Assembly: GCA_963931925.1 (NCBI GenBank)
Contig: OZ007573.1
Coordinates: 37,480,796-37,544,795, forward strand
DNA: 64,000 nt
Origin: Onchidella celtica
Taxonomy: Eukaryota; Mollusca; Gastropoda; Systellommatophora; Onchidiidae
Direction of reading: 5' to 3'
Within the stretch, counting starts at the first letter, position 1. Each line of letters begins with the position of its first letter. The translations under genes were made by a program, and so were the position numbers. The notes under the pieces were generated by a model. It saw only the letters and a list, made by a program, of their open reading frames with translations. It ran no database searches and was not told where the DNA came from. Below are positions 3,275-55,459 of the stretch, piece after piece.

Positions 3275-4258
3275 TCAACCACCTCCAAGTTCTAGAATAA
3301 TATTGTGCATGACAGCTGCACACACAATCATTTTGCACATCAAGGTGTCGTCCCGTGCATCAAAATTCTTCAGGCGTCGAAACTTGCCCTTGAGGAGTCC
3401 AATACACCTTTCCACACAACAACGATCAGATGAATGAATAGCATTGAACTTCTTCTGGGCGTCGGTCAGGTGGCCATTATCCCTGTAGGGTGTCATCACC
3501 GATATGTCGAGCTGATAGGCTGAATCTCCGAGAAGGTGGAACTCCACGGGAAGAGAAGTCTGGGAGATAGGGCTGTTCCTGTAAACACGGGCATCATGTA
3601 CAGAGCCAGGGTAACCAGTGCAGACATCCATGATCTTAAGGTTGCTGTCGCTTACTATCTGGGCATTCATGGCTGGAAACCCCTTGCGACAGATGTATGC
3701 ATCTCGCTGTTCGCCACGTTTCCCAGTCATTGGGATGTAAGTCCCATCCACGCACCCAACAACACCTGGCAGCTTAAATCCCTTGGCCACAGCACGCCAT
3801 TTCTGTATGTCATTAGGAAATCTAATAACCTCTGGAGCCAGGCCAAGCATTGCATCGGCAACCTCATTCACAATCTTGTGCAGAGACTGCTCTTTCCTGT
3901 ATTAAAAACAACAAAAATTGAATAAATCAATTAGATTGTTTTAATTCATGCAGTTCCAACTACATGTAGGCCTATATGTACATGACTTATAATCCTAAAT
4001 GCACCATGGGTTACCTTCCGTTTTGGCTGAAATGCATCAAAAACAATTTGGCTACATTGAAAGGATCATCAAGAGCCGGGACTAAATGATTTACTCCACA
4101 GACCTGCCAACCTCGAATGAGCAAAATCAGGGATGACAGGTGTCAAAATTCAGGATTTGGGAACAAAATTCAGGGTCAACAAAAATAAATTGTTACTCAC
4201 CTCCGAAGGTTCCTACTTTGCTGTTTATTGAAGCACAGCTATAAAATAAGACCACCAC

Positions 4259-18411: not shown

Positions 18412-18749
18412 GAAGAAGAGCTTAAATTTACTAGTAATCGAGCGTTTTCTACACAAACCCGATTCTGAAAATGCCTAGCAACCAATGTGTTTATGCATGG
18501 TTACCAAACTATATTTTCGTCAAAACATAATAAAATAACCCTAGAATGCGAATGAAAATAATCATGAAGCACTGCAGAAAGAAACAGCAAAGGGAACTCA
18601 CTCTGTTATTTCTATACTGCAGTCTACTTCATTTGTAAACAAATCAACAAGTTAGGGTGAAATTTTGGATCTGGAAGCAAACAATTGTATTTTCTGTGAA
18701 TCCATCTCTCCTACTGACAAATAAGTGGACTGTACTCTCAAAAAACATA
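17665..18749. other. Non-coding stretch between the two Kolobok-like genes
   Basis: AT-rich, with runs of loosely similar sentences of sequence (such as TTTCAGCTTTCTAGCATGAA) typical of transposon 3' ends in this window. No gene is seen. The putative right end of the first element is at 18411. Confidence 0.45.
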
Positions 18750-20537
18750 ATGGGAAACGAAAAGAATGCAAAGAGAGACAAGGGTAGACCTAGAAAACGC
18801 AAATTTGGTGGTAATCAACACACAAAAACGAAGTCAGATTCACCCAAAAATACACCACCTATTATCGATAGTGAACTTCTGTGCTCTTCTGCAAAGAAAG
18901 TGAAGCCCCTATCACCCCCACATAGCCAAGATAATTCTTGCAAAGACAATGCATTTATTCTTATGGATACTGGTCTTTTGTTTGAGTTTTTATCAACTCA
19001 TGTCAGATGTGAAGTATGCCAAGACTTCGCTTTACATTGCAAGCTTTTGACGGCGTCTCAGTGTGGATTCAGCCACGACATTGACATATTTTGTTCAAAT
19101 TGTGAGGCATACAAGACCAATTTCAAAACATCTGGTGATGTAACTGAAGGTGAAATACAACATAAGCATAAAGAAGTCAACATGAGGATGATTGCCTTCA
19201 CCAGATCTATAGGTAAAGGCTACAATGCTCTTCAGAATTTTTCACTCTACTTGAACAGTCCACCACCAATGACATACACAAGTTATCGGAATGCATTCAA
19301 AAAACTCCACCAAGCCACATGGGATGTAGCGATTGAAAGCATGAAGACAGCTGCAGAGGAAATTAGATCTAGATCTAGTGAAGTGTCGATATTTGAACCT
19401 GCGGATTGTTCAGTGTCGATGGACGGGACGTGGCAAAAGCGCGGTCATGCAAGCCATCACGGTGTGGTGACCGCAATATCGGTAGACACTGGCAAGTGCC
19501 TTGATGAAGAGGTTTTGTCCAATATTTGCAAAGGATGTCAAAAATGGGAGCCAAAGAAAAGAACTGCAGAGTACGATGAGTGGAAAGTTGCACATAACTG
19601 TAAGGTAAATCATAGTGGGAGTGCGGGTGCTATGGAGACAGTTGGAAGCGTTCGTATTTTCAGCCGCTCTGAGGACAGTCGGAATCTTCGGTACACCAAA
19701 TATTTAGGTGATGGAGACTCTTCTTCGTACAAAAAAGTATTTGAATCAAAGCCGTACGTTAATAAAGAGGTCCAGAAGTTGGAGTGTGTTGGCCACGTTC
19801 AAAAGAGGTGTGGGACGAGGCTTCGGAAACTGAAAAATGAGAACAAATGAGTAAAGCTGAATGATGGGAAAGGACTGGCTGGTGTGGGTAGACTGACAGA
19901 CAAAAAAGTGGACACACTGCAAAATTATTATGGTCTTGCCATTCGAAGGAATGCTGGAAATCTGAACCAAATGATTTCGGATGTCCGTGCAATCCTACCT
20001 CATGTCGCGTCAACAGATGATAACCCAATGCATGAGAAATGCCCTGGTGGTGAAGACAGCTGGTGCAAATACAAACAAAATCCCCAAACATACAAACACA
20101 AGAATGGCCTTCCAGCTGCAGTTATAAAATTCATTGAGCCTATCTTTGAGGGTTTAGCAGATAAACAATTACTACAAAAATGTCTCCATGGGAGGACTCA
20201 AAATACAAATGAATGCCTCAACAAATTGATTTGGGATCATTGCGCAAAGGAAATTTATGTGGAAAAAGATGTCATTGAGGAATCTACTTACAGTGCAGTG
20301 GCATACTTTAATGATGGCAGTAGTTCTATTTACAAAGTGTTGACAAAGTTGGGGTTCGGCGGTGCTCATACCAGAGGACTATGCATGAAGAAGGATTTGA
20401 AACAGATCAATGCGTCAAAATTCAAATCGTCACAACCAACCATGCAGAGAAGGAAGAAGCTTAGAGCCATCAAAAAGGGCTTCATTGACAAGGCAGACGC
20501 TGCTGAAGGAGACGTGTATACACCAGGAGGCCACTGA
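18750..20537 (+). pseudogene. Second Kolobok/Mutator-like transposase with one in-frame TGA
   Basis: Starting at the ATG at 18750 (MGNEKNAKRDKGRPRKRKFG), the frame runs 366 codons to a TGA at 19848-19850 and then continues in the same frame to 20537. The same landmarks as its neighbour appear in order: VRCEVCQDFA and FCSNCEAYK zinc pair, SMDGTWQKRGHASHHGVV (first Asp), CKGCQKW, YLGDGDSSSYK (second Asp), LECVGHVQKRCGTRLR, the stop, then NTNECLNKLIWDHC (Glu). The two proteins are clearly related but diverged, so this is not a recent duplication. A single stop in an otherwise clean frame looks like a young point mutation; sequencing error or read-through cannot be excluded. Confidence 0.75.
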
Positions 20538-33765: not shown

Positions 33766-33925
33766 TGTACTGCTTTCTGTTACTACATCAAAAAAATGCT
33801 GGCAAACTGAATGCATATAGGCCAAAAAATGGTGGCAATGTAAGGGTTAAGGACACAACCAAGCAGTTGCAGAGCCCGTCTCGGAGGGGAGGAATGAGGG
33901 GAAGGTTTTAACTAGCGAAAGAAAA

Positions 33926-35705
33926 ATGAAAAGTTATTTCAAGTCAAAGGCGTTGAAGAGACAGTTCACCATTAAAGAGCTGAAGGAGGAGGCGAGGGAC
34001 CTAAAGTCTGACAAGAGTGCTTTAGAAAAGAAGATTCTAAAATTTAAAGACAAAGAATTTTGCAGTGGAGGTGATTTTTATGGGGATGAGGTGAGGCTTT
34101 GTGTGTACGACCTGCTGGGCCTTGAAGTTGGAATCGAGAAAGTCTCTCCAGTGATCAAGGCTGTGGCTGAGAGACTTTTTGATGCCCAGATTGATCTCAG
34201 GGATTTGCCATCCAGGCAAACAGTTCTACGGATGACAGATGAGGCACAACATCTGGCCAAGAAGTATTATGCAATGGGCCTAGACTCAGTTGAGTCTTTC
34301 GGAATAAAGAAAGATGGAACCGCGAGGAAAAAGATAAATATTCTTGACACAATTTTCACCCTACTGAGTGATGAAGTTCTCCCTCAAGGCTACAAGCCTG
34401 TCGCTAGGGAGACGGCTCAAGCAATTACGAGCACCACACAGTCACATTTTAAAGAACTTGAAAGCACTGCTGGTCAAGATGCCGCCTGGACTGCAAAACT
34501 CCTATCCAAAATCAGATTTAAAATGACTGACAAGGCAGCAAATGAGAAACTGTCCAACAACCAGTTGATACAATGAATTCAGAGTGAACTACAGTCAGTG
34601 GGCCTCCCAGAAACAAGAGTCCACCTGATGTACTGTATGGTACATGTTCTGCTGGGATTTCAGAGGGAAATAGTGCAGGCTGTGACTCTATTTTAGGTAT
34701 TAAAAGACAGCCTTGTCCATGTGGAGCAAAGAAGGTTAAGAGGGGAAAACGAGGTGGCCGTAGAAAGCAACGGCGGATCCAGGTTGTTATGACTAACCGT
34801 GGAGAGAAGAAAGAACAAAAACGGAAGGCTACAATTACACCTAACAACTTGATTACTATTGACACTAGACTGAACACACAAGATCTATCTTATGTCAACA
34901 AATATGTCAACAAAAATAATCGTTTCAATCGACTGTAACAACACTGTACAAGAAAGAGTTCCGTTCTACCGCACGTTATATCAACGCACAATCTTGTAGA
35001 AATAAGATTACAAGAATCAACGACACAATTACAGAACTAAATATAGACCTTTTGTGCATAACTGAATCTTGGCTGTAAGTTCACTCAAACTGGGTCAACT
35101 CACGCTCCTCGAGTCACCGAGCTCAGGCACAGACTACAACTGAATGAAAAACTGAAAACGTCAGGAGCTCTCCCTTTCATTCCTTCTCTCCTTCCTCTTT
35201 TCTGTCTATCTCTTGAATGAGACTTCATTGATATGTCATTTATCTTATTTGCAGATGACCCGACTTCAAAGCTTGAAAGCTTGCTTTTTGGCTGTCGGCA
35301 AGGGGAGAAGGCCTGCACAACCAAGCAAATGTACCTGCAACAAGAGACTTAATCCAGCTTAATCTAATCAGAGACCTTGGTAAAAAATCTGATCGGATGA
35401 GGATGAAGAATCCAACATTCCATTTGAATTTAAAAACCAAGGCGAGTGGGTGTGTGTGTTTTACGATATCGGTTATTTTATTGGGCAGGTTGTTGAAGTC
35501 AAGGACACTGACACCGCTCTCATAAGATTTATGCAGAAAGCCCATGGCAGACAAGACTACTTCAGATGTCCAGCAGCTGTTGACACTGCCATTGTTTATA
35601 GACACTTTGTCTTTCGCTGGTATATAACAGTGAACATTGGTTTCAGTGATGGTCGTTTTTGGGTTGTTCCAGACATTAAAAAAAATCGAAGCCACCTATA
35701 AGAGA
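33926..35705 (+). pseudogene. Relic of the element-A transposase family, with a Tudor-like C-terminal piece
   Basis: The first frame (33926-34576) has a charged coiled coil and then LPSRQTVLRMTDEAQHLAKK and KKDGTARKKINILDT, followed by FKMTDKAANEKLSN. These align with LPSSSTSVNIADEAHFLSK, TDGTSRQKRKYVG and VMSDRAAVMQSFN of the transposase at 48607-51234. A TGA at 34574 is followed in frame by LPETRVHLMYCMVHVLLGF, the counterpart of NKRVHFLYCNAHFLLGL. A LINE fragment then intervenes. At 35420-35700 the C-terminal module reappears: EWVCVFYDIGYFIGQVVEV and GRFWVVPDI. The middle of the protein, with the expected Glu, is lost. Sequence divergence from element A is large, so this is an older lineage. 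Confidence 0.65.
34697..35080 (+). pseudogene. LINE (CR1/L2-like) 5' fragment reaching into the endonuclease domain
   Basis: An interrupted frame reads basic residues (KRGKRGGRRKQRRIQ), then, across a shift near 34935, YINAQSCRNKITRINDTI and ELNIDLLCITESWL. The motif N-A-(R/Q)-S-x-x-N-K followed by D-L-L-C-I-T-E-(S/T)-W-L marks the start of the apurinic-type endonuclease of CR1/L2-like LINEs. It interrupts the transposase relic. Confidence 0.6.
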
Positions 35706-37508: not shown

Positions 37509-39354
37509 CAGAAGTGATCAAAATTAACGCAACACTTTTATTTTAGCACCTGGTGGGATATGTCTTAACAAAACTTAAGAAACCGATATACCAATCGAAA
37601 GAGAATTAAATTCTGCGTACAGTGGTACCTCATTCTTTAGTCAGTGTCAAGTATTAAGTGAGATACAATCTGTCAAACCCAAATCTTCAAATTTGCAGAC
37701 TTGGGAAACAGTACATTGAGGCTCTAAACAAATGTCTTTGGTTACCACACTATTGGTTTACACACCACTGCACCATTCTAAACCACTGTTGAACGCATTG
37801 TTTTCTTCCTGTTAATGTCTGCTGGTCTTAGCCATTTTCTGTTTAAAACCCAGATCTAGATCTAATTCAAAATAAAGATGCCTAAACTAAGCACTGAAGA
37901 AAGGTGCAGAATAATTGGTCATCTTGAAGCTGGATGTAGTGTGACGCAGGTTGCACTCATGTTTCATGTGTCAAGATCATCTGTGTACAGGCTTCAGGAG
38001 AAGTATGAGGTCACCGGGAGTGTGAAAGACTTGGAAAGAGAAGGGCGCCCGCGAGTGACGAACGGACAGGGAGATGGGAACATCGTTCTCATGCACGAAG
38101 CCGAGCCCTTTAGGACAGCTGTAGAGACTGCAGCACAGATGAATTGCAGCCGACACACGGTGAGACGGCGTCTTCTAGAGGCAGGTCTACGTGCCAGACG
38201 TCCAGCCGTGGGACCCATGCTTTCACAACAACACCGACTAGACAGACTGCAGTGGGCGCGACAGCACATGCGGTGGACACATGACCAGTGGTCACATGTT
38301 CTTTTCTCCGACGAAGCAGCGTTCCAAGTGGACAGAAAAGACGGTAGGCTGATATGCTACAGAAGGACAAATGAACGATTTTCACAACAGAACATTCAGG
38401 AAGTTCTAAACCGAGGTTACGGTACTGTGAGTGTTTGGGGTGGGATTGTTGGTGGCAGAAAAACACCTCTAATCCGCATCAACGGAAGGTTAAACGGACA
38501 GCAGTACATCGATCAAATCCTACGGCCCCACGCTGTCCCATTCGTAAATGACCCCGTTAACAACGTTGGCATCTTTGTTCAAGACAATGCTCCTCCTCAC
38601 CGCGCACAAGTTACAAAAGACTTCCTTAGAGACAATGGAATAGAAACCTTGACGTGGCCTTCACTATCACCAGACATGAACCCGGTGGAGCACATGTGGT
38701 CACTGATTAAACGAAACCTCAAGCGACATGACCTGACAAGAGATAACGATGCACTGTTTGCTCTGGTAAACGAACTCTGGGAGGAAGTACCAGATGACAT
38801 CGTCTTAAATCTTACACAGTCCGTGGGACGGAGAGTCAGAAGTTTGGTTCAGGTGGAAGGAGGACACACCAAGTACTAGATCTAACTGTATTTTTCCAAT
38901 TGAAACTGTTATTGTAAAGGAAAAAAACAAGCTGTAATAAATGTATGTGGTTAATTACATTGTTAACTGTTAACTTTTGTTATGACTTTTTATCATATGC
39001 ATGTGACAGAAGAGCGTGTTTAACATAACGTTACCGTAACAAAAACACAAACAATTTAAAAACGAAACAAAACAAAACAGCGATCGACAAAAGCAGGTGA
39101 ACCTACATTACATGCATTTTTTTTCATTTTTCAAAAACCGGCGTTAGATCTAATTTTGCAAAGTTCGAAAAATGAAACATTCGTCTTTTAGACCAGATAT
39201 ATCAATGAATTCACACCAGAGCCGCATGCGCCTGGTATCAGCGTATGCAGAATTTAATTTTCTTTAAGATGATATATGATTCGATTGCTTGTGTAAAAAA
39301 CTGTTTTCTTCAGTTTAAGAAATAAAAGTGTTGCGTTAATTTTGATCACTACTG
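37509..39354 (+). mobile_element. Tc1-like transposon, 1,846 bp, complete
   Basis: The ends are 35-bp inverted repeats differing at one base: CAGAAGTGATCAAAATTAAC at the left, CAGTAGTGATCAAAATTAAC on the minus strand at the right. TA flanks both sides (37507-37508, 39355-39356). It contains one intact transposase gene, so it is likely to be young. Confidence 0.95.
37878..38879 (+). CDS. Tc1-family transposase, DD34E, intact (333 aa)
   Basis: Residues 1-110 form the paired-like bipartite DNA-binding domain (RCRIIGHLEAGCSVTQVALM, HVSRSSVYRLQEKY, then CSRHTVRRRLLEAG). The catalytic triad is complete: LFSDEAAFQVD, IFVQDNAPPH and SPDMNPVEHMW, with 34 residues between the second Asp and the Glu. 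The length is typical for Tc1 (about 340). The enzyme cuts and pastes the element at TA sites. The ATG follows the 5' inverted repeat and untranslated leader; no disruption is visible. Confidence 0.95.
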   Translation: MPKLSTEERCRIIGHLEAGCSVTQVALMFHVSRSSVYRLQEKYEVTGSVKDLEREGRPRVTNGQGDGNIVLMHEAEPFRTAVETAAQMNCSRHTVRRRLLEAGLRARRPAVGPMLSQQHRLDRLQWARQHMRWTHDQWSHVLFSDEAAFQVDRKDGRLICYRRTNERFSQQNIQEVLNRGYGTVSVWGGIVGGRKTPLIRINGRLNGQQYIDQILRPHAVPFVNDPVNNVGIFVQDNAPPHRAQVTKDFLRDNGIETLTWPSLSPDMNPVEHMWSLIKRNLKRHDLTRDNDALFALVNELWEEVPDDIVLNLTQSVGRRVRSLVQVEGGHTKY

Positions 39355-39940: not shown

Positions 39941-40481
39941 TAGGCCTGAAATCTTCTGTTTCAAGATCTCAGTATGAAGTGTATCGTAGTCGCGTTGTGA
40001 CGGCAGGATCCAGATTTCTAGATTTATGTTGTTATGAAGTGAATCATAGTCGTAATTGCTTTGTAGTCATGTTATGAAGTTTATCGTAGTCCTCCTAGAT
40101 CTAGATCTAGATCTATTCTAGAGTAGGCCTGAAATCTTCTGTTTCAAGATCTCAGTATGAAGTGTATGGTAGTCGTATTGTGACGGCAGGATCTGTTCTA
40201 GATGTCTAGGTTTGTGTGACTAAGCTTGGAATCGAAATCTGTAACCAAGATCTGAAGTGTTGTTATGAAGTGAATCATAGTCGTATGACATTGTGAACTA
40301 AGCTTGGAATCGAAATCTGTAACCAAGATCTGAAGTGTTGTTATGAAGTGAATCATAGTCATATTGACATTGTGAAATCGAAGAATAATGCAGAATTAGA
40401 TGAGACTTCAGTTCACATTTATTTAAACAACATTAAGAATTAGATGAGACTTCAGTTCACATTATTTAAACAACATTAAAA
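39941..40481 (+). repeat. Nested tandem duplications upstream of the Helitron gene
   Basis: At least three units are repeated. A unit beginning GTAGGCCTGAAATCTTCTGT is at 39941 and 40124. A unit containing GAACTAAGCTTGGAATCG, of about 75 bases, is at about 40218 and 40293. A 45-base unit starting GAATTAGATGAGACTTCAGT is at 40392 and 40437. Palindromic AGATCTAGATCT words are interspersed. Confidence 0.75.
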
Positions 40482-40482
40482 A

Positions 40483-42710
40483 ATGCCTCGACAAAGAAGA
40501 TTATTAGTAGGAACACTAACACCATTTCAAAGAGAGAGGCGGAAACGAAGAAGAACTCGAACAGTTGAAGAAGAAACAAATCATGAAAATGTCCCTCCTT
40601 TGGCGCCTTTGCCTGCTCACCCTGATCTTACAACAAATGATGAAAATGTTCCTCCATTGCCTATACCCACTCTTCCAAGAGCATTTGTGTATGACTCAAC
40701 AACATTTCAAACAGAATGTGACGTGGGCACACTAACAGTACAGTGCCCTCATTGTATGGCTCTTAAATTTCCCGGAGAAACAAAAGGCATGTGCCGTTTA
40801 AATGGCAAAGTCGACTTGGAAACATTTCCACAACCTCCACCAGTACTTGCAGCTCTGTTAAGAGGTGAAATGCCTGATTCTATGCATTTTTTAGATAACA
40901 TCAAGAAATATAACTGTACATTCCAGATGACATCGTTTGGGAATAATGAAGTCAATTTACATGGATGGAATCCAAAGTTTAGAATTCACGGCCAAGTGTG
41001 TCACCGTATTGGCCCACTTGAACCTAACAATGAAGAAGACAGAAGCTTTCTTCAAATTTATTTTTTAGACAACCAAGCGGATGAAGCAACTTTACACGGT
41101 GGAATTGTTGGTGCATTGCGACATGAATTAATCTTAACGTTGCAGGATATTTTGCACACCCATAACAAATATGTGCGAAATTTGAAATCTACATATGAAT
41201 TTGCAAGGGAAAACTTCCAGTCATACAAGATTGTTATCAATGAAGAGGCCAGACCAGCAGGAGAGCATGAAAGAAGATACAATGCACCAAATTCACATGA
41301 CATTGCAATTCTCATGCCTAATGACCCAGTCGGACACCGGGACATTGTACTTCACCCTAGATCTAATCAGCTCCAGAGAATATGTGAACTTCACAAAGCA
41401 TATGACGCTCTGCAATACCCAATTCTTCTACCACACGGAACTGATGGGTGGAGTTTGGCCCTAAAAATGAACAGCCGTAATAAAACCACACAACTCCAAT
41501 TTTATTGCTTCCATTTTTTTACTAGACCCGACAACTATCTACTGCTTACCCGCAGATTGTTCCAACAATACTTGGTTGACTCATATGCCAAAATAGAGTG
41601 TGTGCGTCTCCAATTCATCCGCAGACAACAAGGCCAGCTGCATGCAGACAACTATAAAGATTTGCGAGATGCTGTTCTTGACAATGATGGAGATCTACAA
41701 AATTTAGGACAGAAAGTCATTCTTCCTGCAACATACTGTGGTGGACCTCGCTACATGTTTGAACGCCAGCAAGATGCCATGGTGTATGTTCGCAAATTCG
41801 GTCGCCCTGATCTATTCATAACAGTGACAACTAACCCACAGTGGAAAGAAATAAAAGACAATCTTAGCACAGGACAACAATCACACGATAGACCCGATTT
41901 AGTCGTGAGAGTCTTCAGAATGAAACTTCAAAAGATGATGGGACTTTTAAAAGATGGATGTTTTGGTTCTCTGCGAGCATGGCTATATTCCACTGAATAC
42001 CAAAAACGTGGTTTGCCCCATGCACATATACTTTTGTGGCTTGATGCAAATGCTTCCATTCACCCAAACACAATTGACAATGTTGTATGTGCAGAGATTC
42101 CCAATAAAGATACTGATCAGGAGCTTCATGAAATAGTTGTCAGTAACATGATTCATGGTCCCTGTGGTGAACAGATCAGCTCAGCGCCATGCATGAAAGA
42201 TGGAAAGTGCTCCAAGAACTACCCACGGCCTTTCGTGCAAGATACAGAAGTAGGGATGGATAGTTACCCTAAATAGACGCAGACATCCAAATGATGGTGG
42301 AAGGACAGCAGTAAAAAAGTGCAACAACAAGGATGTAACCTTAGATAACCAATGGGTTGTTCCATACAATCCATGGCTCCTACGCCAGATGAAGTGTCAT
42401 GTCAATGTGGAAGTATGTGCTTCAATAAAGAGCATAAAATATGTTTTAAAATATGTTCATAAAGGTGCAGACATGGCCACAATTCAACTGCGGCAAGCTG
42501 GCAGCAGAGATGAAGTTTCAAATTCTGTTAAAGCACGCTATATCGGCAGCACAGAAGCTGCATGGCGCATTTTTGACTTGCCAATTCATGAACGTCACCC
42601 AGCAGTTGTTCAGTTATCAGTACACCTAGAAAATGGACAGCGTATGTACTTTAATGAAAACACAGCTCAACAAGTCATTGCTGGAGATCCATTTAACACC
42701 ACATTAACAA
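40483..42710 (+). pseudogene. Helitron replication-helicase protein, N-terminal and HUH nuclease part
   Basis: From the ATG at 40483 (MPRQRRLLVGTLTPFQRERR) the frame runs 597 codons. It contains a zinc-like CPHCMALKF, the Helitron-like N domain (CTFQMTSFG, FRIHGQVCHRIGPLEP, YDALQYPILLPHGTDGW) and the Rep HUH motif GLPHAHILLWL. One frameshift near 42270 is followed by the rest of the nuclease with its paired tyrosines (KYVLKYVHKGADMA). The reading frame then stops at 42710 at the insertion point of element A and resumes in frame at 52149. Helitrons transpose by rolling-circle replication in the nucleus. The leader carries tandem repeats. Confidence 0.85.
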
Positions 42711-43416
42711 TAGGTATCCCAAACCCCTGCTAAGCGGCAGGCAAACGGTTGGGCGAGCCGTGAAAATTCGGCATTTTCAAACTGTTGGTAGATGTGTTGT
42801 ATCTTAAGCAATAGTAATAAAAATTATACCAGTGTTTTCTGCAACCTTAGATCTACCCAAAAATGAAATCAGATTGTAATATAACAATATAACAAATAAA
42901 CAGTTTTGCTTGAAAGTCGGTCACCGATTTACGCAAAATCGCCTTTTCCAGTCAGCTCGGTTGAGACTGAAATCAGGTCGCCTCACGGAAATCATTGGCG
43001 CTCTGCGCTGAAACAAGCTAGCGATGTAAAACCAACTGTGTCAGATCGTGCTTTGGATGGGCTTTCCCATGGTACCTTCCGCTGGGTGTTTACATCGGTA
43101 GAAGTTTTGATAACAACGGGAGAAAAGTAAGCTATTTTTAGACAGGAGATTCCGTACCGACATCATTGATTGGTCTATCTAAATTCGGTATCATATGAAA
43201 CGTCATCATTTGCTGTTTATAATATGTAAAAACCAAAACTATTGGTCAAACGGGCACCGAGCGCCACCTCTCGGAAAAACATGACCTATTTGGGTAAGCG
43301 CGGGATGCCCGAAACCCTCGATGCGGCGGCAGTGAACGTGCGTGACAGGACTTCGCCCGCAAATTTACCAGCTCTCGGTTTTGAGTTCTTGGATATACTC
43401 TGTGTGTGAATTCACT

Positions 43417-46400
43417 ATGGAAAAGGATTTAATTGGTAAGTAAATGCATTTCATATTATTTCATATTTGTTTTCATTGCTTTATAAACAATTTTGTCGAA
43501 AAACAAGCGTCCTTCGCTTTGTTTACCGACGAAAAATGGCTCTGCCTGGAACAGTGCCTTCATCATTTGGCATTGCTATTTAAATCTAGGCAAGCTATCA
43601 GGTTAAAACTAATGCCATTTAGTAGAAGAAATATTGAAGTTTACATCCATATCACATAAATTCTCAGAATATGTCTCTGTATCACTGAAATTTGGCATTT
43701 TTTATTGAGCACGTGACCATTTTTCCTTATCGGGAAGCCATCATGGCGGCCCGAAAACCAAATGCTGTGATATGACAATGGACTCGCCCGGGATAGGTAT
43801 GTGTCACCCGCCCACGAGTAACATGCCTAGCTAGCTTTAATTTTGATACTATTTATATATTTTATAAATTACTATATTTACTTGGTGGAAACCCTTAAAC
43901 TCATGCAGTGACCAGAGTAATTGAATAAGGCTATAATGCTGCTCTGTGAAAGTTGTACTAAGTAGATCTACCCCACTTTGAAACTAATGGACTCGTTATC
44001 TTGTTGCAGCGCAGTGCTCTCACCGCAAGTATGATAATTATATTATTATAACCGCACATTTTTACCCAAATGACTCTAGTAGGCCTATATTAATTATTGA
44101 TAGCAGGCATCTCGTTATACATTTTGCCTTTGGTTTTTGTTTCAGAGGATGAGCAAATGGAATGCCTCAGGGCAACTCTCCTGAAAACTGGCAAAGGTCG
44201 GAGACCTACACTTCCAGACTTGGAAGTTAACAACAAGTTACTTCTGCAGTTGTATCAGCTTCGGATTGAAGGTGGCAGAACAACCAAAGAGGTGCATACT
44301 CCTTAATATTTATATAAGATAATATTACCATTGATAAATCTGACGATACTCAATGAATCTGGCTCCGTTCTGATTAAAAATTATCTGCGTTCGGGAGATG
44401 ATGCACTGTTATCAAATTACTGAAAAACATCATTTCTTATTCAGTGTAATGTATGTTTGTCTTCAGTTCTGGCTGTACCAAATCAGCTTTCTTAGCCTCT
44501 TCAAAATTTTTTATGTTGAGTTTGTGATTTGTTCTTTAAATGTGTTTATCCCTGCGACTGCAGAGTTTTATTACCACAGGCAGTTTTGTTATTCGAGTCT
44601 TGATCTGATATTGTTCATTTAAGAGAAAGTAAGAAATAAACTTTTTCATTTCAGTTTTAAATGAAAACAAATTAAAAAATTTGATTTTATGACTACTGCA
44701 ATTGCAAATTGCTGCGACAGGAATTGAACCAGGAAGATAAATGTGTATATTCAACAGAACTTACATATAGTCATTTAGCGCAATCTTTAATTGAGTATAT
44801 CATTTTCGCTAACGCAGTATTTTGTCCTTTTCCCTTTCTTGCCATTAGGTTGAGCAGTGGTTTAGTAAACCCTGTCCAGACTCCATCTTCCCCTCAAATA
44901 GAATATGGAAACGAATTGAGAGAGTATGGAAAGCAGCAAACAATCTTGAGGGCCAAGATATTAAGAATTACATAATCCAACCTGTAGACTTGGACTTCAT
45001 CAGTGATGCTCTACATGTGGTTGGAGTGACAAGGGCACTAAAGAAGTCACAGTTTGTTTGCTGTACAATAACAAATATTATTGCAGTAGACTTGGGAATG
45101 TTTATGCTCAAAGAAGGATATACCTACAGTGACTTCTTGGTGATGCTGTCTGCTCTGACACAAAGTGAACTGACCATTACGGCTAATGACTTGCGACAGA
45201 GATATTTAGTGGCAGAAAAGGAACGCAAAAAACTGCTTAAAAATGTGAAGCGAGATCCAACATCTCTGAAGATGTGGCTAGAAAAGCCCTTTTTTCAAAC
45301 ACACACAGCTTCTGAAGAGTCTGCACCCACAGCTACAACTTCAGCATCTCAGATCTCTACAGCCAGCACCCTGACATCTCAGGATGAACCAGCCATGGCA
45401 ACATGCTCTGAAACTGCAACACTAGAAACAACTCACTCTGAAACCAGCCACTCTGTTGTGACTGCCTCAGTTGAACCACACCCATCAGAGATAAAATCCA
45501 CCAAAGAGTTCAATGTTCTGCAGCAATCACTGCGGGATGCACAAGACTGCATTGCAAGCCTTGGACTGAAGCTTGAGGCTGTGACAGAACAATACAGAGA
45601 TACCAAGGCAGAATTGGTCAGAACTGAGCTTGAACACAAAAAGCTTGCAAATGAAAATACTGATCTTAGTAGGTACTAGAAACTGCCTAGTATCTGACCG
45701 CGAACAGCCGCGGTCTGTGATAGCGACAACGAAAAAATTGGTTTTGACCCATGTTCACACTACTATTGCTCCCAAACGGCTTGGTGTATTTTAAAACAAA
45801 TTGCACAGTTGTAAAGTTCGTCTTTTTCTCGTCACAACAGTGCTATTTTATTTTTTGTTACTTTTGTTTAAAAGTGCGGTTGGATCCCGTGAAAAGCGCC
45901 AGTTTTGTGCGCTTCGGATCGCGGCGAACTCGGCAGGGCGCCGGGAGATTTTGCAAGATTGGGGGTGTGTCGGCATTTCGCGTCGTGAAAGTTTTCCTGC
46001 TGTCGTACACATTCGAAACGTGTGCAAAAAGATGCAGAAATGGCCGCTGAATCGATTGGTATAATATTCATCCGCCTCCGATACTGCAATCTTGGCGAAA
46101 ATGTGAATTTTCTGGAAAAAATCGTATTTTTTACGCAAAAACGACGTGAAAACGTAATTCTAGGCGATCATGCCATGCGCCATTAAAATCTACGTCCAAT
46201 TCTGCATTATTATGCAAAATTTCGTGGAACTACTTTGCAATGAAAAGTTTCTCACGCCGTTTCAAAATACCATCCAATTTACGAATGTAGTTCTGTTGTG
46301 ATCGGGAAGCCAAGATGGCGTCTTGTTTACCAGTTTAGGATACGAGTGTTCAATCCATGGATTATACACCGCCTGTGCTTTCATCGATGGATATTTTCGC

Positions 46401-49400
46401 TTTTATCGGTAAGTAAAGATGTTAATTTAATTAGATTTACGCTTCTTTATTTTTTTTACGATGAATATAGCAATGATATCCAGGCTTCATTGAGTCGTAA
46501 ATGTCTCTATCGGGAGGTTCGCGTCGACTCCAACATTCGAGAACGCTGTTAATTAATTACGGGCAATCAACAGCAGAGTAAACGCTATTATTTGACTAAA
46601 GTAGTTTTAATTTTGTTACTCAAACTGTCATATTCGCGATTTAATGGATAGAATAACCATCAGCAGCTTACAAAACGATGTGTTTCGGCATCGATTTATA
46701 AATGCCGCTTAGTCCGATAGAGTAACATCCCTTTACAGGCGAACGACCAATCGGGTACGCGCGAGCGAGCTACTTTCACTTTCGTTTTTGTAGCTTAACA
46801 TTTCGTTTTTGTTCGTTTTGTTTGTTTATAGCCTACTGCCCTGTGCTCAATATCGCACATTGTAGTGTTTATTACTGAAACTCCTGCTTTATGTCTAAGA
46901 CTGGGTGCAGATCTAGCCTGATATGGCATGACAGTTTAAGGTTCAGCCACAAACAATGCATAGCATTGCAGAAAGAACCCTTTGCACAAATTCCTTGCCA
47001 CCCCCTACACCCCCCCCCCCCCACCCCCCACATTTCCATTCTTGGTGTACATATTAAACTCATTATAATCATGGAACATTACTATACTATACTAATTAAG
47101 GAGTTCATGTATCTGCTGTGTAAATAAAAAAAAAGGATACATGTTTCAATTTATTTTAAAATTGATAATGTTTGCTTTGAATTGCATGTATTTTTTTTTT
47201 TCAGATGACGATAATTACAAGCTCTTTCGAAGATGTTTCTTGACTACAGGAAAGGGTAGACGGCCAACAATACCAGAAATCCCAATAACAAATAAGTTGT
47301 TACTTCAACTTCATACTCTGAAAACAGAAAGCAATGTACCATACCACAAAGTGAGTAGTTTGGATTTTTATGCTGCTGCGGGACAAAATCATTCATTATT
47401 TTCATGCATAGCAGACAAAATAAAGGGTACAATGTAACGAACACTTTATTATTTTTTTTTTATTTGTTATTGACGATGTTTTCGATCTTGTGTGTGTTTT
47501 TTTTTTTTTTTTTGCTGTTATCGTGCCGAAGAACGGCTTTGGCATTATTCATTATTATCCCTTTTTCTGTGGTGAGAAAGAGAACTCGATAATGAGAGAT
47601 ATGGTGATCTTCGTTTTCTTTTTGTGAAAAGTATTTTGAATAACTTTTGTACCCAGGCATTTTCGTGGCTGAAGCAGATCATGCCAGACACCGCCCTCGA
47701 TGACGAAAGGTACAAGTACATCAGTGAGAAATTGTGGAACGAAGCCCAAAATCTAAAACCGGACAGTTTCAGAGCATTTTGCGACGAAGAATTTGATTTG
47801 GACATCATATGTGAGACGTTTGGACTCAACCGGAAGACTCTTTTGCAACCTGAATGTTTTCAACGACCCTCTCCAATGCCAGATGTGACGTTTGCTCTTC
47901 TTATTGAGCTTGACCGCTTTAGGAAGAAATACAAATTGTTTTCAAGTTAATTTACAGTCAACACACTTGTAGTTGTTAATTACTTGTGGTATTTTATTAG
48001 TTTGGGAAATTTTTTATTTTTTTTTGAAATTTTTTTTCCTTTTTCGTAATTTTGCAGTTTCTGCTGAATTATCTCCCTCTTATTACGCAAACCAAGCTTC
48101 GTAACCCCCCGAAAAAAATTGAGAGTGATCTATGTACCGGTGGCATCATGTATGAGAAGTTTTATCTTTGTGGCTTGATTAGAAAATAAATTGTAGTTGC
48201 CTAAAGTTGGCACATTGTGCTGTTTGCAACGGTTTTTTTTTGCCAACATCATGTCCCGAACCCTTATTTAACTGAAAATACAGATGTAATTTGTTGTAAT
48301 TAGTTCATTATAACATCATAAGCTCACAATAAATGTTGTAGGGAAATGTTTTTAGTGATCTGAGACCTCTTGCTAAGAAAATCTGCGAACCGTGAGCGCT
48401 CGAACATGGTGTCGTGGCACACGGCGCACCGTTGCGATAAAAAACTAAGTCCAGCCAAACATTATTTGGTCATAATTTCTTTATTTATGAAGATATTTTA
48501 AAACCAAAGACATCTTTGTGCTCAGGTAAATAATCTCTATCAGACTGTATCAACAAAAACAGAAAATAGTCAATTTAAAAAATCAGTTTCTAGTACCTAA
48601 TCTTAGGCTCAAAATTAAGCAGCTGAAGGAAGCCACTGACAGTTATGAAGATATAACAAAAAGCAAACTTTACAAGAACAATCACAAGTTGAAGAAAAAG
48701 TTTTCTGCTCTTCAAACCTTGAACAATGTTCTATCTACGAAAATAAAGAGCTTGAATAAAGAAATCAAAGAGCTGAAGAAAAGCAAACTTTCTTTCCAGA
48801 AAAATTTAAGTAAAACAAAGAAGATAAACAAACAACTGCAACAGGAAAAGAATAACATTGATGCAGGAGCCATTACAAAAATACTGGAAGGCTGTAAGGA
48901 AGAACCACAAAGTACAAGAAACAGACACTGTAATCGTTTTAATGATAATATACGAATGACAATTATAGGGCTTCAAGAGGCAGGAGTTGCAGCAAACAAA
49001 TGTTCAGCAGCAATTGATATAGTTGCTCGCTACCTGTTCAATACACAACTGACAGATTTGCCATCTTCCTCAACATCAGTTAACATTGCAGATGAGGCCC
49101 ATTTTCTGTCCAAGGCCCAAGCCGCACAGATGATCATTGAATCTGCAAACACCACCCTGCACACTGATGGCACCAGCAGACAGAAGCGCAAATATGTTGG
49201 GCAGCAAGTTACTCTGTGTGACGGGTCTCTGATTAGCCTTGGCTTCTCGGAAGTAGCTACTGAGGATGCAGAGACATTGCTGACCACAACTCTTTAACTT
49301 GTTGGAAGAACTGTCTGACATATATTGTGATGTAACAGATGAAGTGAAACCTGATGTATTTAAGCAAATACTGGAACATGTTACAAGTGTCATGTCGGAC

Positions 49401-51234
49401 AGGGCTGCAGTCATGCAGTCTTTCAACTCAAAGCTGCAGCAGTACAAAGAAGATCATATAGGTTTAAACAAACGTGTACACTTCCTGTACTGTAATGCCC
49501 ATTTTCTTTTAGGATTGTCTACTGCCTGTGAAAATGGACTACAAGATATTGAGGAGAGTGTCCGAGAAAAATATGGTCCACTTGGAAGAGAGTTATCTCC
49601 TCAGTTCAAGCACTGGACTTCATCAGAAGCAGCCACGACAAGATTAATTCGGACAGCGGCTGATGTGTTTGGTCCGCGAGGGGACGAGAAGAGTGGTGTT
49701 CGCGAAGAGTGGTTGGCATTCTGCAGGAAAGAAGAATTTATGTCAGAAATAACCAGCTACAGATCAAATCGCTTCAACTGCCTGTTCGAGAATGCTTCAG
49801 CTATCTTCCACCATCGATGTCATATCAAAATCTTCCTTCAGGATTTTTCGTCATCAGCCAACAAAAAGCTGCAGAGTGTGCTGGCAGACATCTCTGACAT
49901 ACGACTGCAGTCTTTAATCACGGCAGTGGCATTGTTACATGCCTATGTTTCTAAGCCCTACTGGAATCTGATCAACAGCTCTGTTCCATATGTGGATTTC
50001 CACAAGTATGTACAAATGATGATGTCAAATTTGCGAGATTGGAAGGAAAATCCACATCATCTTCTTGACACAGAATGCAAGGGTGCTTTCAATGGAGAGT
50101 TCTTGGATGAAGTTGACACCTCACTCCATGAGTTTGCCGTTCAGCAACACCTCGTGACAACAGCTTTGCAGGCCCTTACTTCCAAATTCATCGATGTTAC
50201 TTTGCGTCAGCTGAAAGATTTTCTGCCTGATGGTGTCTTTGGTAAAGGTGTGAGTGATGATGTGGAAGCAACCCTTAAACACTGCCCACTCACAAATTTA
50301 TCTGGCGAACATGCATTTGGTGATTTAGACTATAGCATGCATGTGAAACGACACACTTCCTTGCACCACCACAGCACTACAAACATGTTGAAACGGAACA
50401 AAACCACAGCATGGCTAGCAGGGAAATCGCCATCTGATCTTCAGTCTGGGCTGAAAATTTCAAGAAAGCGGGCCAGGTCTCTGAGACAAACATCGTCGCC
50501 AAGAAGAGTTGGTCAAGCTGCGCATTCAAGAGCGCATTGCAGAAAATGAACGGGTGAAGAAGGAAAAGGAGATGGCAGCTGTAGCAGAAAAACAACGCAT
50601 TACTGAGGCTGTCATCCAGCTGGGTGGCCCTGTGAAGTGTGTTCAGGATATCCACACCTTACTTAAACATCATAGTAATGGTGTGGAAGTTTTGAAAGCC
50701 CAGCTTAGATATCTGAAAGTAGTCCTAGGCATTAAAAATGTCAAAACCAGTGGCAGTAAGGCACAGCTCCAGAGTTATCTTCAGGATTACATTACTGGTG
50801 AAAAATCCAGCACCTCTTCACCACCAAGAAAACGGAGAAGGATTGCAAAAGGCAGCTGCAGTTCAGATGCAAGCCATGTTAGTGCCAGTTCTGAAGATAG
50901 TTCTTCTGACGATGAATCAGCCACGATGCACAGCTTCACATTCGATCGTCAGGGACAGTGGGTGGCTGTGTATTATGATTCTGCCTTCTACATAGGCCAA
51001 GTAATAGAAGTGGAAACTATGTCAAAAGCGACGGTCAAGTTCCTCACAGCCACTAAAGGAAGGAAAGATTATTTCAAATGGCCTTCAGCAGAAGATATTG
51101 ACTCTGTTGATACTACATTTGTCTTTAAATGGGACTTTGATGTGATTCCCATCTCAAGTGACGGGAGAATTTGGTCAGTGCCTCACATTGATTCCATAGC
51201 AAAAGCGTATGACAGAATACGAAATACTGACTAG
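43417..51234 (+). CDS. Element-A transposase candidate: novel N-domain, coiled coil, DDE-like core, Tudor-like C-terminus
   Basis: Exons: 43417-43435 (MEKDLI), 44146-44291, and 44849-51234; the last is split by element B (45670-48606 removed). Phases agree at every junction. The ancestral protein is about 1,200 residues. In order: a conserved N-domain (TGKGRRPTLPDLEVNNKLLL; WFSKPCPDS; VWKAANNLE), a Ser/Thr-rich stretch, a long Lys/Glu coiled coil, then a core with TDGTSRQKRKYVG (Asp at 49164), VMSDRAAVMQ (Asp at 49398), YCNAHFLLGL, and SGEHAFGDLD (Glu at 50306) followed by HTSLHHHSTTNMLKRN. About 300 residues separate the second Asp and the Glu, as in hAT-type RNase H folds with a helical insertion; this core assignment is inference. 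The end is a basic, acidic-serine linker and a Tudor/SH3-like module (QWVAVYYDSAFYIGQVIEV, GRIWSVPHI). Single-base frameshifts near 49288 and 50505 break the present copy. Confidence 0.7.
45670..48599 (+). mobile_element. Element B: 2.9-kb relative inserted in the element-A gene
   Basis: The ends are perfect 16-bp inverted repeats, TAGGTACTAGAAACTG (45670-45685) and CAGTTTCTAGTACCTA (48584-48599). The 7-bp duplication ATCTTAG is at 45663-45669 and 48600-48606. Excision restores an open coiled-coil frame in element A. A hairpin with 7-bp arms, GACCGCG and CGCGGTC, lies just inside the left end (45696-45715). It shares with A the outermost TAGGTA, the 7-bp duplication and a gene with the same first three exon positions. 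Confidence 0.9.
46357..47950 (+). CDS. Element-B protein: stand-alone N-domain of the element-A family
   Basis: Exons 46357-46408 (starts MDYTPPVLSS), 47205-47350 and 47657-47950, about 163 residues, with GT-AG sites and phases identical to element A. Exon 2 is 146 nt in both. It reads LTTGKGRRPTIPEIPITNKL, aligning with LKTGKGRRPTLPDLEVNNKL of A, and exon 3 continues WLKQIMPDTALDDERYKYI and LWNEAQNLK, aligning with the A residues after exon 2. The protein then ends naturally (KKYKLFSS, stop), with no coiled coil, catalytic core or Tudor-like module. It could be an end-binding or regulatory factor, a repressor, or a remnant of a larger transposase. No frameshift or stop is present. Confidence 0.75.
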
Positions 51235-52126
51235 GTTAGTACATATATTTATTTATAAATGGACATAAAAAGGCCTAAAGTAGACATACAAGGCATTGTT
51301 CCTTTAACTGAGCACCATTTAAGGTCCTTGTACTTCAGTAGTGTGAATTTTACTTGTTTGAAATCTGTAATGAAAATTTTTTTATGATCAGATTATCATA
51401 TTTTTTTTGCCTAACTTACTCTCATGCAACACATTATCTGCTCATTGTAGAAAGAAAAGGACACCATTTTTGAATTCCTCATCCAAAAATTAGTAAAGTA
51501 GCAAAGTTTCAGAAGTCTGTCATCAATAGTAACGTTTTTATATGATGTTGCATAATGGCTATTTTGGGGGGATTTTTTTCCACTTTCGTCGAATTAAGCC
51601 ATCTGTCATTTTCAGTGAGCAGATTTTGATTGCATTTCTTACCAGAAGGCCCCGAAAAAAATTGGGCACATTCTCTGGCATACAGAGCCTTACGTCATTA
51701 AGTTTCATGAACATATCTCATTTAGTTTTGATTTTGTGGGATCTTGAACTTGCCCTTTGGGGCAGTTTTGCCATCAAATTAGCCGTCGTAACTGTACAGT
51801 TGTCCCACTTTGAGCTATCATATTTTTTGTTATAACAACTTTAGCATCTTGATATGCTCCATACATGTACTGTATAACTTTGTAGTTCAAATTGCTCATT
51901 GAAATGAACTGTGCAATGCTTTGCTGCGGAAATTTTGACCTGCAAAAGTCGTGTATTGTCAAGCGGACACAAAGTCATTAATTATTCTAAGTCCCAGCAA
52001 ACTTTAAACATTGATATCTCCGCTTCTAATTAAGCTACACACAAAATCTTGGTACAATTTTTCTCGTCTCATCAAGCTCTATCTAAATATGTCCATAGAA
52101 TTGCTAAATTATGGTATTGAAAATTT
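51235..52126 (+). other. 3' region of element A
   Basis: AT-rich non-coding sequence. Near 51985 it has TTCTAAGTCCCAGCAAACTT followed by ATATCTC, a motif that recurs about 100-180 bases inside the right ends of element B (48452) and of the fragment ending at 53961 (53810). Confidence 0.6.
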
Positions 52127-52148
52127 GGTTTGGGATACCTATTAACAA

Positions 52149-53099
52149 GCTTCATAACACTATGTGCAACAGATGAGTTCGCACGGACAATCACCTACTC
52201 TGATGTTCCAAAGTACTACACCTGGGATAAGAGTTCAAAGACATGGAAAAGACGAAAACGGGGTCATGCCACCAACACCCCTGGTGTATTTGAAACAGCA
52301 ACACTTGGAAGAATTTATACAGTCAGCCCAAAACAAGGCGAATGTTTCTGCCTTCGACTTCTATTACTGACAGTTAAAGGACCAACGTCATTTCAAGACT
52401 TGAGAACATATGAAGGTCATGTACACCAAAGCTACAGAGACGCATGTATTGCCAGAGGCCTATTGGAGGATGACAACATGCAAGGCCTCGCGTTACAAGA
52501 ATCTGCCATCAGCAGCTTTCCGCAACAATTGCGAAACCTGTTTGCTTTATTACTGACACAGACATCACCATCAAACCCAATGGCTCTATGGAATGAATTT
52601 AAAGAAAACCTGACAGAAGAATACATCAACCAAGATTTAACAACAGACCAATCAGAAAACATGGCCCTTATTTGCATTGAAAATATGGTTATGGAAATGG
52701 GGGGACCAAAATTACATGAATTTGGATTACCAAGAACTGAACGTGAAGCAGCAGAACGCACAGGAAATGATTATAAGCGTGAAACCAGTTACGACATTGA
52801 GCAAGAAAGGCAAAGAGCACAACAAAATGTGGAACTTTTGACACAAGAACAGAAAACTGTTTTCACGCATTTCACTCGACAATTAGAAAAATGATCAAGC
52901 TGGACTTTATTTTCTTGATGCCCCTGGTGGATGTGGTAAAACTTTCCTCATAGAGACAATTTTGGCATCGGAGAGAGCTAAAAGTAAGATTGCAATTGCA
53001 ACCGCAAGCAGTGGTCTCGCTGCAACATTATTACCTGGAGGCCGGACTGTTCATAGCACTTTTAAAGTTCCTCTAAATATAATGAACACAGATGCCCCG
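52149..53099 (+). pseudogene. Helitron protein, continuation with start of the helicase domain
   Basis: In frame with the part ending at 42710: CATDEFARTITYSDVPKYY, TPGVFETATLGRIYTVSPKQ, GECFCLRLLLLTVKGPTSF. A one-base shift in an A-run near 52888 precedes the SF1 helicase Walker A site (DAPGGCGKTFLIET) and the next motif (ATASSGLAATLLPGGRTVHS). The protein is cut off at about 53099, where a piggyBac fragment abuts it, so most helicase motifs and the Helitron 3' end are missing. Confidence 0.85.
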
Positions 53100-53463
53100 A
53101 TTGGAAGACATTGTTTTTCCATTTTCTAGATATTGCCAGAGTAAATAGTTATATTTTGTTTCAGGACTGGAGAAAGCAAAACCCTGATTTGAAAGAACTA
53201 GATAGAAGTAACAAGTTTAATCAGCTTGCATTTACAGAAGAACTAATCAGGCAACTCGGGAAAATTGACGACTTTGCAGATGTTCCAACAGCCTCAAAAC
53301 CAAAAATTTTTACTAATCACCCAATTATTCCTGGTATTGTTCCAACTTCTCAGAGAAAGAACTGTAAGCTATGTTATGATAAATTACATGTTGAACAGAA
53401 AAGCAGATACTTCTGCAGAACTTGTAATGTTTTTCTGTGTCTGCATGACACACGGAAAAGTTA
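53100..53463 (+). pseudogene. piggyBac C-terminal fragment fused to the broken Helitron
   Basis: Starting at WKTLFFHFLDIARVNSYILF, it covers the last about 120 residues of a piggyBac close to that at 6359 (shared LAYTEELIRQL-type block), through NCKLCYDKLHVEQKSRYFC and NVFLCLHD. The final NC...H residues are lost. It starts with no TTAA, so it reached this place by deletion or a rearrangement, not by its own transposition. Confidence 0.75.
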
Positions 53464-53961
53464 GCTCTTTAAATGACTTCGTAAACGTCGTCAACAAATC
53501 CTCGGTGATGAACGTAGCACAGCTATGTGGTGACGAAGGTGTTATCTGAGGTGTTACAGATGTCCAAAAATGGCAGTTTGTCTCTTGACATTGCCAAATT
53601 TGTCAACAGCACTGTAAAATCCCCCAACTTTGGGGTCCCATAGAGTCTTGAATATGTATCTCTTGAGCCTGATATTTGTTTTGTATGTACACATGTTGTC
53701 AGTTTGTAGAGGTAATCAGTTTTATAACATGTATTTTGTTTGCTTATGATGTTATGAGTGCGCGAAAGTGGCTTATGTCATCGTGGCGCATCGTCGCCAA
53801 ATTTTTCTAAGTCCATTCAACTTTCAAAACGTCATATCTCACTTATTTTTTGTCCGATTTTAATGATTTTGATATCAATGTTTTTGTCTCTTTGAGCTCT
53901 ATATGAATACACCAACCAAATGTGTATTGGATCTGTTTTAAAATTTGGTTTGGGATACCTA
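53464..53961 (+). mobile_element. Right-terminal fragment of another element of the A family
   Basis: It ends GGTTTGGGATACCTA at 53947-53961, identical to the right 15 bases of element A. About 150 bases inside lies TCTAAGTCCATTCAACTTTC followed by ATATCTC, as in A and B, and further left a GCGCATCGTCGCC patch matching GCGCACCGTTGCG in B. It sits directly in front of a transposase frame (53962), so it interrupted that gene. Its left end is not present. An open frame at 53470-53550 (NDFVNVVNKSSVMNVAQLCG) is not recognised. Confidence 0.6.
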
Positions 53962-55459
53962 CATCAAGAGCTTTAGGGGAAACAGATTCAATAATCTGTT
54001 TGAGTCAGCTGCAGCTCTCTACTATCATAGGAAAGATATTCAGCTGTTCCTCGATAGTTTTGTGACGCACCAAAACCTCAAGCTCAATAGTGTTCTGGAG
54101 GACAATAGGGACAACATCATCAGTGTATGCCTGCAAGCTATTGGCATTATGTTCCACACAATAACAGGACCATACTGGAACATTCTAATGAGTTCCACTC
54201 CATATCTGGAATTTTACAAGTTTGTCATCCAGATGAAGAATGCCTTTGAGGAATGGTCCACAGACAGCTCCCTAGCCATAAGGAAGGATGTACATATATT
54301 CCCAGACTTTCGTGTGAAAGATACTTGCTGTATGGAGTACTTATATTCTGAAGTGTCTCCTGAAACACAGGAGGTTTTGAAGAGTCTATCAAAAGCCTTC
54401 CTTGATGTCACTATTCTTCAGCTGAGTGACTTCTTGCCAGAAGGGAGATATTATGCCATCACTGATGAGGCCAGGCAAGACAAAATGGCCCACTGTGTGC
54501 TGACAAATTTAATGGGGGAGCAGTGTTTGGGAGACTTGGACTTTAGGCGCAGGCATTCAACTCTTCATCACCACAGCACCATCAACATGTTGAAGAGAAA
54601 TGCAACTGTGTCAAAGTGGCTTACATCTAAGTCCTCTCACCTCCAGAACACCCTGCTGAAAAAGGCCTCAAGCTGCAGTGTATTGTTTCGTTCACGAAAT
54701 ATGGACAAAGAGCGAGCTGTCCGGGCACAGGTCCAAGCAAAAGTACAGGAGCAGCATGAGGCAAAGGAAAAGAAGGCGGCTGCAGCAGTCGAGCGAAAAA
54801 TGGCACTGACCGCAAAACTCAGCAACCATGGAGGCCCGCTGCAATCCCTGGAAGCACTCAGTTCAGCTCTGCGCAATTGCAGGTCTAAAACTGCCCAAAA
54901 GAGCTGCGTTCAGTCTGAGCTGCAGTACCTGCGCCATGTCATCGGCAAGAGTGTGCGACTGACCGGCAGCTTAGAGGACCTCGTTGCGACTCTCAGTGAG
55001 CACATCTCTGGGGAAACATCGTCAGTCCCCATACCCTCTCCCATGAAGAAACGCCGGAGAATTAACAGCTCCGACAGTGAAGAGCTTGACGAGGAAAAGG
55101 AGCTGGACCCAGAAAGTGAGCAGGAGCTGGACACAGAACATGTTAACTTGACAGCTTTCAGCTACACCACTCAGGGAGAATATGTGGCTGTTTATTATGA
55201 CCAGCAACTCTACATTGGCCAGGTAACCGCTATCAAGAGCCCTGACCTTGGCACTGTCAGTTTTTTGCAGCAGTGTGGGCTGAAGAAAAACTGCTTCAGA
55301 TGGCCTACTACAGAAGACATTGAAGATGTTCCTGCAGACTTTGTGCTTCATAGTGCATTTGAACTTTTCTCAAACAGTGGTAGAGTTTGGACACTGCCGG
55401 CACACCATCAGCAGCGTCTGGAAGTTTTGTATGACGAATACAAGAAACGCATGTTTTAA
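53962..55459 (+). CDS. Second element-A-type transposase, C-terminal half with Tudor-like module
   Basis: The open frame, about 500 codons, starts at the junction with the terminal fragment and is continuous. IKSFRGNRFNNLFESAAALYY aligns with ITSYRSNRFNCLFENASAIF of element A, then VTILQLSDFLPEGRYY, LTNLMGEQCLGDLDFRRRHS (Glu region) and LHHHSTINMLKRNATVSKWL. A Lys/Glu/Ala coiled coil, a serine/acidic linker with MKKRRRINSSDSEELDEEKE, and the C-terminal module follow: GEYVAVYYDQQLYIGQVTAI, FRWPTTEDIEDVPADFVLH and GRVWTLPAH. The N-domain, coiled coil and both Asp regions are missing. The retained half has no stop or frameshift, unlike element A, yet the sequences differ widely. Confidence 0.75.

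Follow-up and report, generated by a model that had tools for sequence, protein, structure and literature searches.

A 64,000-nucleotide stretch of the Onchidella celtica genome (assembly GCA_963931925.1, contig OZ007573.1, positions 37,480,796-37,544,795, forward strand), called the window here, contains two nested DNA transposons, elements A and B. The two very probably belong to a deep and diverse animal lineage of cut-and-paste DNA transposons with a hAT- or P-like mechanism. This deep, unannotated and recently active lineage of hAT/P-like Asp-Asp-Glu (DDE) transposons is possibly a superfamily of its own.

Termini, target duplications and genome copies

The termini of A are a 15-bp perfect inverted repeat, TAGGTATCCCAAACC, and those of B a 16-bp perfect inverted repeat, TAGGTACTAGAAACTG; both begin with TAGGTA. 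A sequence-only reading of this DNA had proposed nested elements with a terminal TAGGTA and exact 7-bp duplications, TTAACAA for A and ATCTTAG for B, and its coordinates proved exact (Table 1). The insertion site of B is the coding sequence of A. A in turn splits the gene of a Helitron (Pfam Helitron_like_N, E = 3.9e-53), and the Helitron frame is open again once the flanks of A are joined. The whole window was scanned blind for an exact 7-bp duplication next to a perfect inverted repeat of at least 9 bp at a spacing of 0.1-16 kb. Three pairs were obtained: B (16 bp), A (15 bp) and an AT-rich pair at 33097/40468 (9 bp), with A and B having the two longest repeats. The TAGGTA hexamer occurs 20 times in the window against 18.8 expected. 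It was dropped as a marker in its own right because this is the chance frequency, and the evidence therefore lies in the repeat and the duplication, not in the hexamer.

The genome (1.14 Gb, 43 contigs) was searched with the transposase core, which matches at least 105 stretches (best 100 of 261 candidates scored), several of which may be one copy. The search for ends covered part of these matches. Both ends were found for 21 insertions in seven families: A, B, eight copies of family F, two of G, seven of H and one each of I and J. The duplication is exactly 7 bp in 20 of the 21, which bears out the 7-bp length as characteristic. Over these 20 the duplications follow the motif nTnnnAn, with T at position 2 in 19/20 and A at position 6 in 19/20; none of 20,000 random draws of 20 window 7-mers attained the same T and A counts. 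L032 can also be read with a 9-bp duplication and a repeat starting one base later, and the 7-bp reading was adopted because it agrees with the other copies. The pair chosen for I (L016) is the top scorer of its blind scan; for J (L018) a second pair scored equally, and the TAGGTA pair was picked for its termini. Eleven loci were not closed. These are element D of the window; L015, L026 and L022, in which the left end is present and no right end was found; and L003, L004, L005, L017, L021, L029 and L031, where the 3.8-4.2 kb examined held no A-type end.

Across the seven families the perfect terminal repeats span 6-16 bp, and the GC (guanine + cytosine) fraction is higher at the 5' end (0.47-0.56) than at the 3' end (0.28-0.35). 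Hairpins just inside the 5' ends had been claimed for both elements and were the weakest point of that account. DNA folding of the 5' 70 nucleotides gives z = -3.7 for B and z = -1.4 for A. RNA folding of the 5' 80 nucleotides in one copy of each family gave z scores below -2 only for B (-3.2) and G (-2.4); A scored -0.45. With just two of seven families under this value, hairpins were rejected as a defining feature.

Eight copies of family F are 99.9-100% identical over at least 4,130 bp in all 28 pairwise comparisons and lie in eight different target duplications. Two copies taken whole measure 5932-5933 bp, with ends TAGGTACC, and the family F open frame runs for 1086 codons, stop to stop. 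Family F jumped so recently in this genome that its eight copies found here have stayed all but identical. Family G has two closed copies (6748 and 6759 bp) and a third with a left end only. The nine loci of family H (L014 783-4154, L015, L023-L028 and L030) are ~97-99% identical, have ends nearly the same as those of A (TAGGTATCCCAAACT) and hold elements shorter than those of other families. L014 closes within its own locus at 3372 bp and has a core frame of 544 codons; six more closed with extended stretches and two did not close. Families I and J are single copies, and their open frames run for 1236 and 1163 codons. In a quick tree of 82 core sequences, these genome families branch apart from one another, interspersed with relatives from elsewhere; many inner forks of the tree are weakly supported.

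Transposase genes, relatives and predicted core

The exons of both genes were inferred by eye from splice sites. The A gene is degraded: B lies inside it, and its downstream part survives in three overlapping frame pieces. The N-terminal domains (N-domains) of A and B are 33% identical over 113 residues (two-sequence blastp, E = 3e-20), in agreement with the conserved N-domain proposed for both genes. The B protein aligns with approximately residues 31-182 of the long relatives; its search against a large protein database returned seven candidates, none of which reached E ≤ 0.001. The motifs TDGTSR, MSDRAAV and GEHAFGDLD reported for A are all present, though split over two frames because the gene is frameshifted. 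A protein of about 1,200 residues had been assigned to A; that length holds for long relatives (P0093, 1199 residues) but not for A itself.

A search with the core of A yields 80 proteins at E ≤ 0.001, and a profile search finds at least 103 (best 8000 candidates scored). The named sources are mostly molluscs, together with the annelid Lamellibrachia, the nemertean Lineus, the sea spider Nymphon and fishes. Long relatives reach 1,000-1,231 residues. The named proteins are labelled hypothetical, unnamed, uncharacterised or, once, as a host gene. A Plakobranchus gene model named "WD repeat and hmg-box DNA-binding protein 1" (P0120) contains the N-domain and part of the core; here a transposon has probably been joined to a host gene in the annotation.

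The N-domain and a Tudor-like module at the C terminus each recur in part of the relatives, in support of the sequence-only reading. A single-pass N-domain profile matches 37 of 163 core-found proteins and 19 of the 33 that have at least 850 residues; an iterated version was discarded after it had drifted into core sequence. Of 168 sequences, 19 fit a strict Tudor-like motif pattern, among them A and G. The open frames of families F, I and J do not fit it, and the module is therefore not universal. Two of 27 alignment members, one of them P0069, match Pfam Spin-Ssty (best E = 1.1e-7), a Tudor-like family.

Catalytic residues were counted in an alignment of 81 sequences, 74 of them non-fish, over the non-fish rows with a letter at the position; seven fish proteins were excluded and A's own core is absent from this alignment. 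The first Asp (D1, 55/55), the second Asp (D2, 68/68), an Arg (68/68), the Cys (70/70) and His (69/69) of a CxxH motif and the Glu (70/70) are invariant. A's own core carries the same catalytic residues in a separate alignment. The relative P0003 (522 residues) was modelled with AlphaFold using a 27-row alignment, giving a mean predicted local distance difference test (pLDDT) score of 91.9 and a predicted template modelling (pTM) score of 0.86. The model starts with strands 37-46 (holding D42), 49-58 and 63-71 and helices 76-94 and 98-111. Strand 112-117 leads into D118, helix 120-138 follows, and strand 145-148 leads into C149..H152. Only helices are present from 152 to 410, and helix 418-433 contains E421. 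This order of strands and helices is expected of a ribonuclease H (RNase H)-like transposase whose last catalytic helix is preceded by a helical insertion. The P0003 core is thus predicted to be ordered like an RNase H fold that carries such an insertion. The hAT-like RNase H core suggested earlier for A is supported by its D-D-CxxH-E order and, through the relative P0003, by the predicted structure.

Seven fish proteins (P0123, P0125, P0126, P0127, P0131, P0132 and P0135; four are named, from Esox, Siniperca, Brachyistius and Genypterus) match both N-domain and core. D1, D2 and the Cys of the CxxH motif are missing from these proteins; the His is kept in one of the seven and the Glu in six. 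In the quick tree they form one clade with a long stem and shorter tips. Judged from these residues and this branching, the fish proteins are probably a domesticated transposase gene. P0065, P0069 and P0077 form a distant sister group, and P0065 and P0069 read SERDFA at the catalytic Glu. This group may bridge the A/B lineage to hAT.

Relation to named superfamilies

Pfam assigned no transposase family to the pieces of A, to the 27 alignment members (25 of 28 families shown) or to nine long relatives, and NCBIfam gave no transposase family match. As a control, Pfam was applied to the window itself, where it detected transposase frames of the piggyBac, Tc1, Mutator and Harbinger types together with a reverse transcriptase. 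It had no match for the fragment at 5217-6017, taken by eye for hAT, and the absence of a Pfam hAT match is therefore not strong evidence against hAT. Relatives were absent from the viral contigs scanned and from the bacterial and archaeal contigs scanned. Among the literature matches listed, titles and abstract openings held no apparent description of this protein.

Several observations weigh against the reading of A and B as cut-and-paste transposons with a hAT- or P-like mechanism. Even at E values up to 10, Pfam gave no transposase family for four open frames of the genome, and PDB matches held none. There was no significant sequence link to hAT or to any other named superfamily; comparison of the core with the by-eye hAT fragment was not significant (probability 0.4%), and the region of the second Asp nevertheless aligned. 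L027 of family H, left out of the motif count, has a 6-bp duplication and is the sole exception among the 21 closed insertions. A-type ends were sought at 16 loci, and seven of these had none within the stretch examined. Excision and transposition are themselves inferred, not observed.

The claim that no named superfamily fits stands as far as Pfam, NCBIfam and PDB are concerned, but the 7-bp length on which it leaned has precedents. hAT families with 5-, 6- and 7-bp duplications are described in PMC12730594, and Galileo, of the P superfamily, is described with mostly 7-bp duplications in PMC4168063; the statement that hAT and P make only 8-bp duplications is contradicted by both. The same length occurs in hAT7, Galileo and Kyakuja, and its uniqueness was rejected. 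The rank of a new superfamily is possible but unproven because duplication length alone is not unique.

A divergent hAT branch, comparable to the 7-bp hAT7, is a serious alternative to a separate superfamily, with a probability somewhat under one half. hAT transposases share the D-D-CxxH-E order, an RNase H-like core (predicted here) and a helical insertion, and they carry an SERxFS motif around the Glu that SERDFA of P0065 and P0069 resembles. Terminal inverted repeats and TAGG termini fit hAT as well. Hermes, a hAT element, is described in PMC10368747 as preferring 8-bp nTnnnnAn targets; the 7-bp nTnnnAn found here therefore has the same symmetry with one base fewer. This symmetric T..A duplication pulls the family towards hAT. 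The 5-, 6- and 7-bp hAT families (PMC12730594) would accommodate the length, which differs from the usual 8 bp of hAT. Unlike in hAT, the N-domain is not a recognised BED finger, and a coiled coil is present, as is a Tudor-like end in some members of the family. The lack of a Pfam match to hAT dimerisation or BED domains is a weak counterargument, as Pfam also missed the window's by-eye hAT fragment. By the Repbase criterion, iterated searches should show a hAT member to converge in sequence with known hAT proteins; none of the 103 listed profile matches carries a hAT Pfam domain, in a search that reaches only proteins sharing exact words.

Membership of the P superfamily (P, Galileo), or a position as its sister, is unlikely. 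Galileo has the mostly 7-bp duplications mentioned above and a DDE core, and its residues D327, D415, D449xxH452 and E642 (PMC4168063) are spaced on the same order as D42, D118, C149xxH152 and E421 of P0003. However, no THAP domain was found in the nine long relatives or the four open frames, the duplication motif is nTnnnAn rather than the GTATTAC of Galileo, and the motif is CxxH rather than DxxH.

An identity with Dada or Kyakuja (KDZ) is highly improbable, even with duplications of 6-7 bp in Dada (PMC3706591) and 7 bp in Kyakuja (PMC12730594). Dada also resembles the present elements in its large intron-containing gene and its DDE core with an xxxH motif. Dada is described as targeting small-RNA genes, having DxxH and lacking terminal inverted repeats (PMC3706591); zinc fingers are also described for it. 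By contrast, A and B have inverted repeats and the lineage has CxxH, the insertion sites are a Helitron for A and A itself for B, and the window contains no Rfam or tRNA match. Kyakuja is described with CA..TG termini and no inverted repeats (PMC12730594), in contrast to the TAGGTA termini and inverted repeats here. Both identities were rejected on these defining features, with the insertion sites of A and B considered.

The reading of A and B as members of an unnamed superfamily sister to hAT and P is held tentatively, at just short of an even chance. Such a superfamily would be characterised by TAGGTA termini, 7-bp nTnnnAn duplications, its own N-domain and a partly present Tudor-like reader. 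It would be active or just silent in this genome, would have N-domain-only satellites or regulators such as B and would have been domesticated at least once in teleosts as a catalytically dead protein.

Feature map and proposed transposition

The window holds further members of the lineage (Table 1). The 5' end of element D, which lies inside copy C, was not found. Copy E is broken at 34691-35239 by an apparent non-LTR (long terminal repeat) retroelement fragment (ITELNIDLLCITESWL), assigned by eye. The Helitron replicase-helicase interrupted by A occupies 40480-42710 and 52149-53129, and its end passes into a piggyBac-like C-terminal fragment at ~53121-53460 (by eye). Other transposase frames are two Mutator-like frames at 15541-17661 and 18639-19847 (Pfam PF20700), a piggyBac-type frame at 7183-8772, a Harbinger-type frame at 3275-3898 (- strand) and a Tc1-type frame at 37866-38876, the last flanked by 24-bp inverted repeats at 37520 and 39343.

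Table 1. Coordinates of elements A and B, their genes and further members of the lineage in the window.
Feature	Position	Strand	Description	Basis
Element A	42711..52141	+	9431 bp DNA transposon, degraded, within Helitron	15-bp perfect terminal repeats and TTAACAA
A left target duplication	42704..42710	.	TTAACAA	sequence
A right target duplication	52142..52148	.	TTAACAA	sequence
A gene exon 1 (inferred)	43417..43435	+		GTAAGT donor and reading frame
A gene exon 2 (inferred)	44146..44291	+	N-domain TGKGRRPTLP	splice sites by eye, homology to B
A gene exon 3, to B insertion	44849..45669	+	remaining N-domain and next region	open frame, N-domain profile match
B left target duplication	45663..45669	.	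ATCTTAG	sequence
Element B	45670..48599	+	2930 bp, nested in A	16-bp perfect terminal repeats and ATCTTAG
B gene	46357..47950	+	three inferred exons, 46357-46408, 47205-47350, 47657-47950; N-domain only	open 163-residue protein
B right target duplication	48600..48606	.	ATCTTAG	sequence
A core frame 1	48607..49297	+	coiled coil, then first catalytic Asp (TDGTSR)	open frame 48530-49297, profile match
A core frame 2	49284..50549	+	second Asp (MSDRAAV), CNAH, conserved Trp, Glu (GEHAFGDLD)	open frame, homologues, residue counts
A C-terminal frame	50485..51234	+	weak SAP-like stretch and Tudor-like module GQWVAVYYD..FYIGQV	open frame; Pfam matches sub-threshold only
Element D (further A-type)	53937..53961	+	3' end only, inside copy C	25 bp, 96% identity to A 3' end
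Copy C	53962..55459	+	C-terminal core and Tudor-like module of another member	open frame, tblastn with homologues
Copy E	33851..35703	+	degraded member, two pieces, ~33851-34690 and 35411-35703	open frames, homology

In the proposed mechanism, an autonomous element would encode a transposase of roughly 1,000-1,240 residues acting in the manner of a hAT or P transposase. Its N-domain would bind the transposon ends and its coiled coil would mediate multimerisation. Catalysis would be carried out by the RNase H-type DDE core with its CxxH motif and all-helical insertion. Towards the C terminus there is a weak SAP-like stretch, and some members of the family also have a Tudor-like module that may contact chromatin. 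The transposase would recognise ends starting with TAGGTA, excise the element and integrate it with a 7-bp stagger between the two target strands, with a preference for nTnnnAn, which would leave the 7-bp duplication. B would be a non-autonomous relative with the N-domain only and may serve as a regulator or accessory binder.

Family F is directly testable as an active element because its transposase frames are open and its copies near-identical. The 7-bp nTnnnAn motif is a natural test case for the way in which a hAT-like transposase fixes the length of its stagger. The lineage spans molluscs, an annelid, a nemertean, a sea spider and fishes, yet the libraries searched recognise no transposase family in it.

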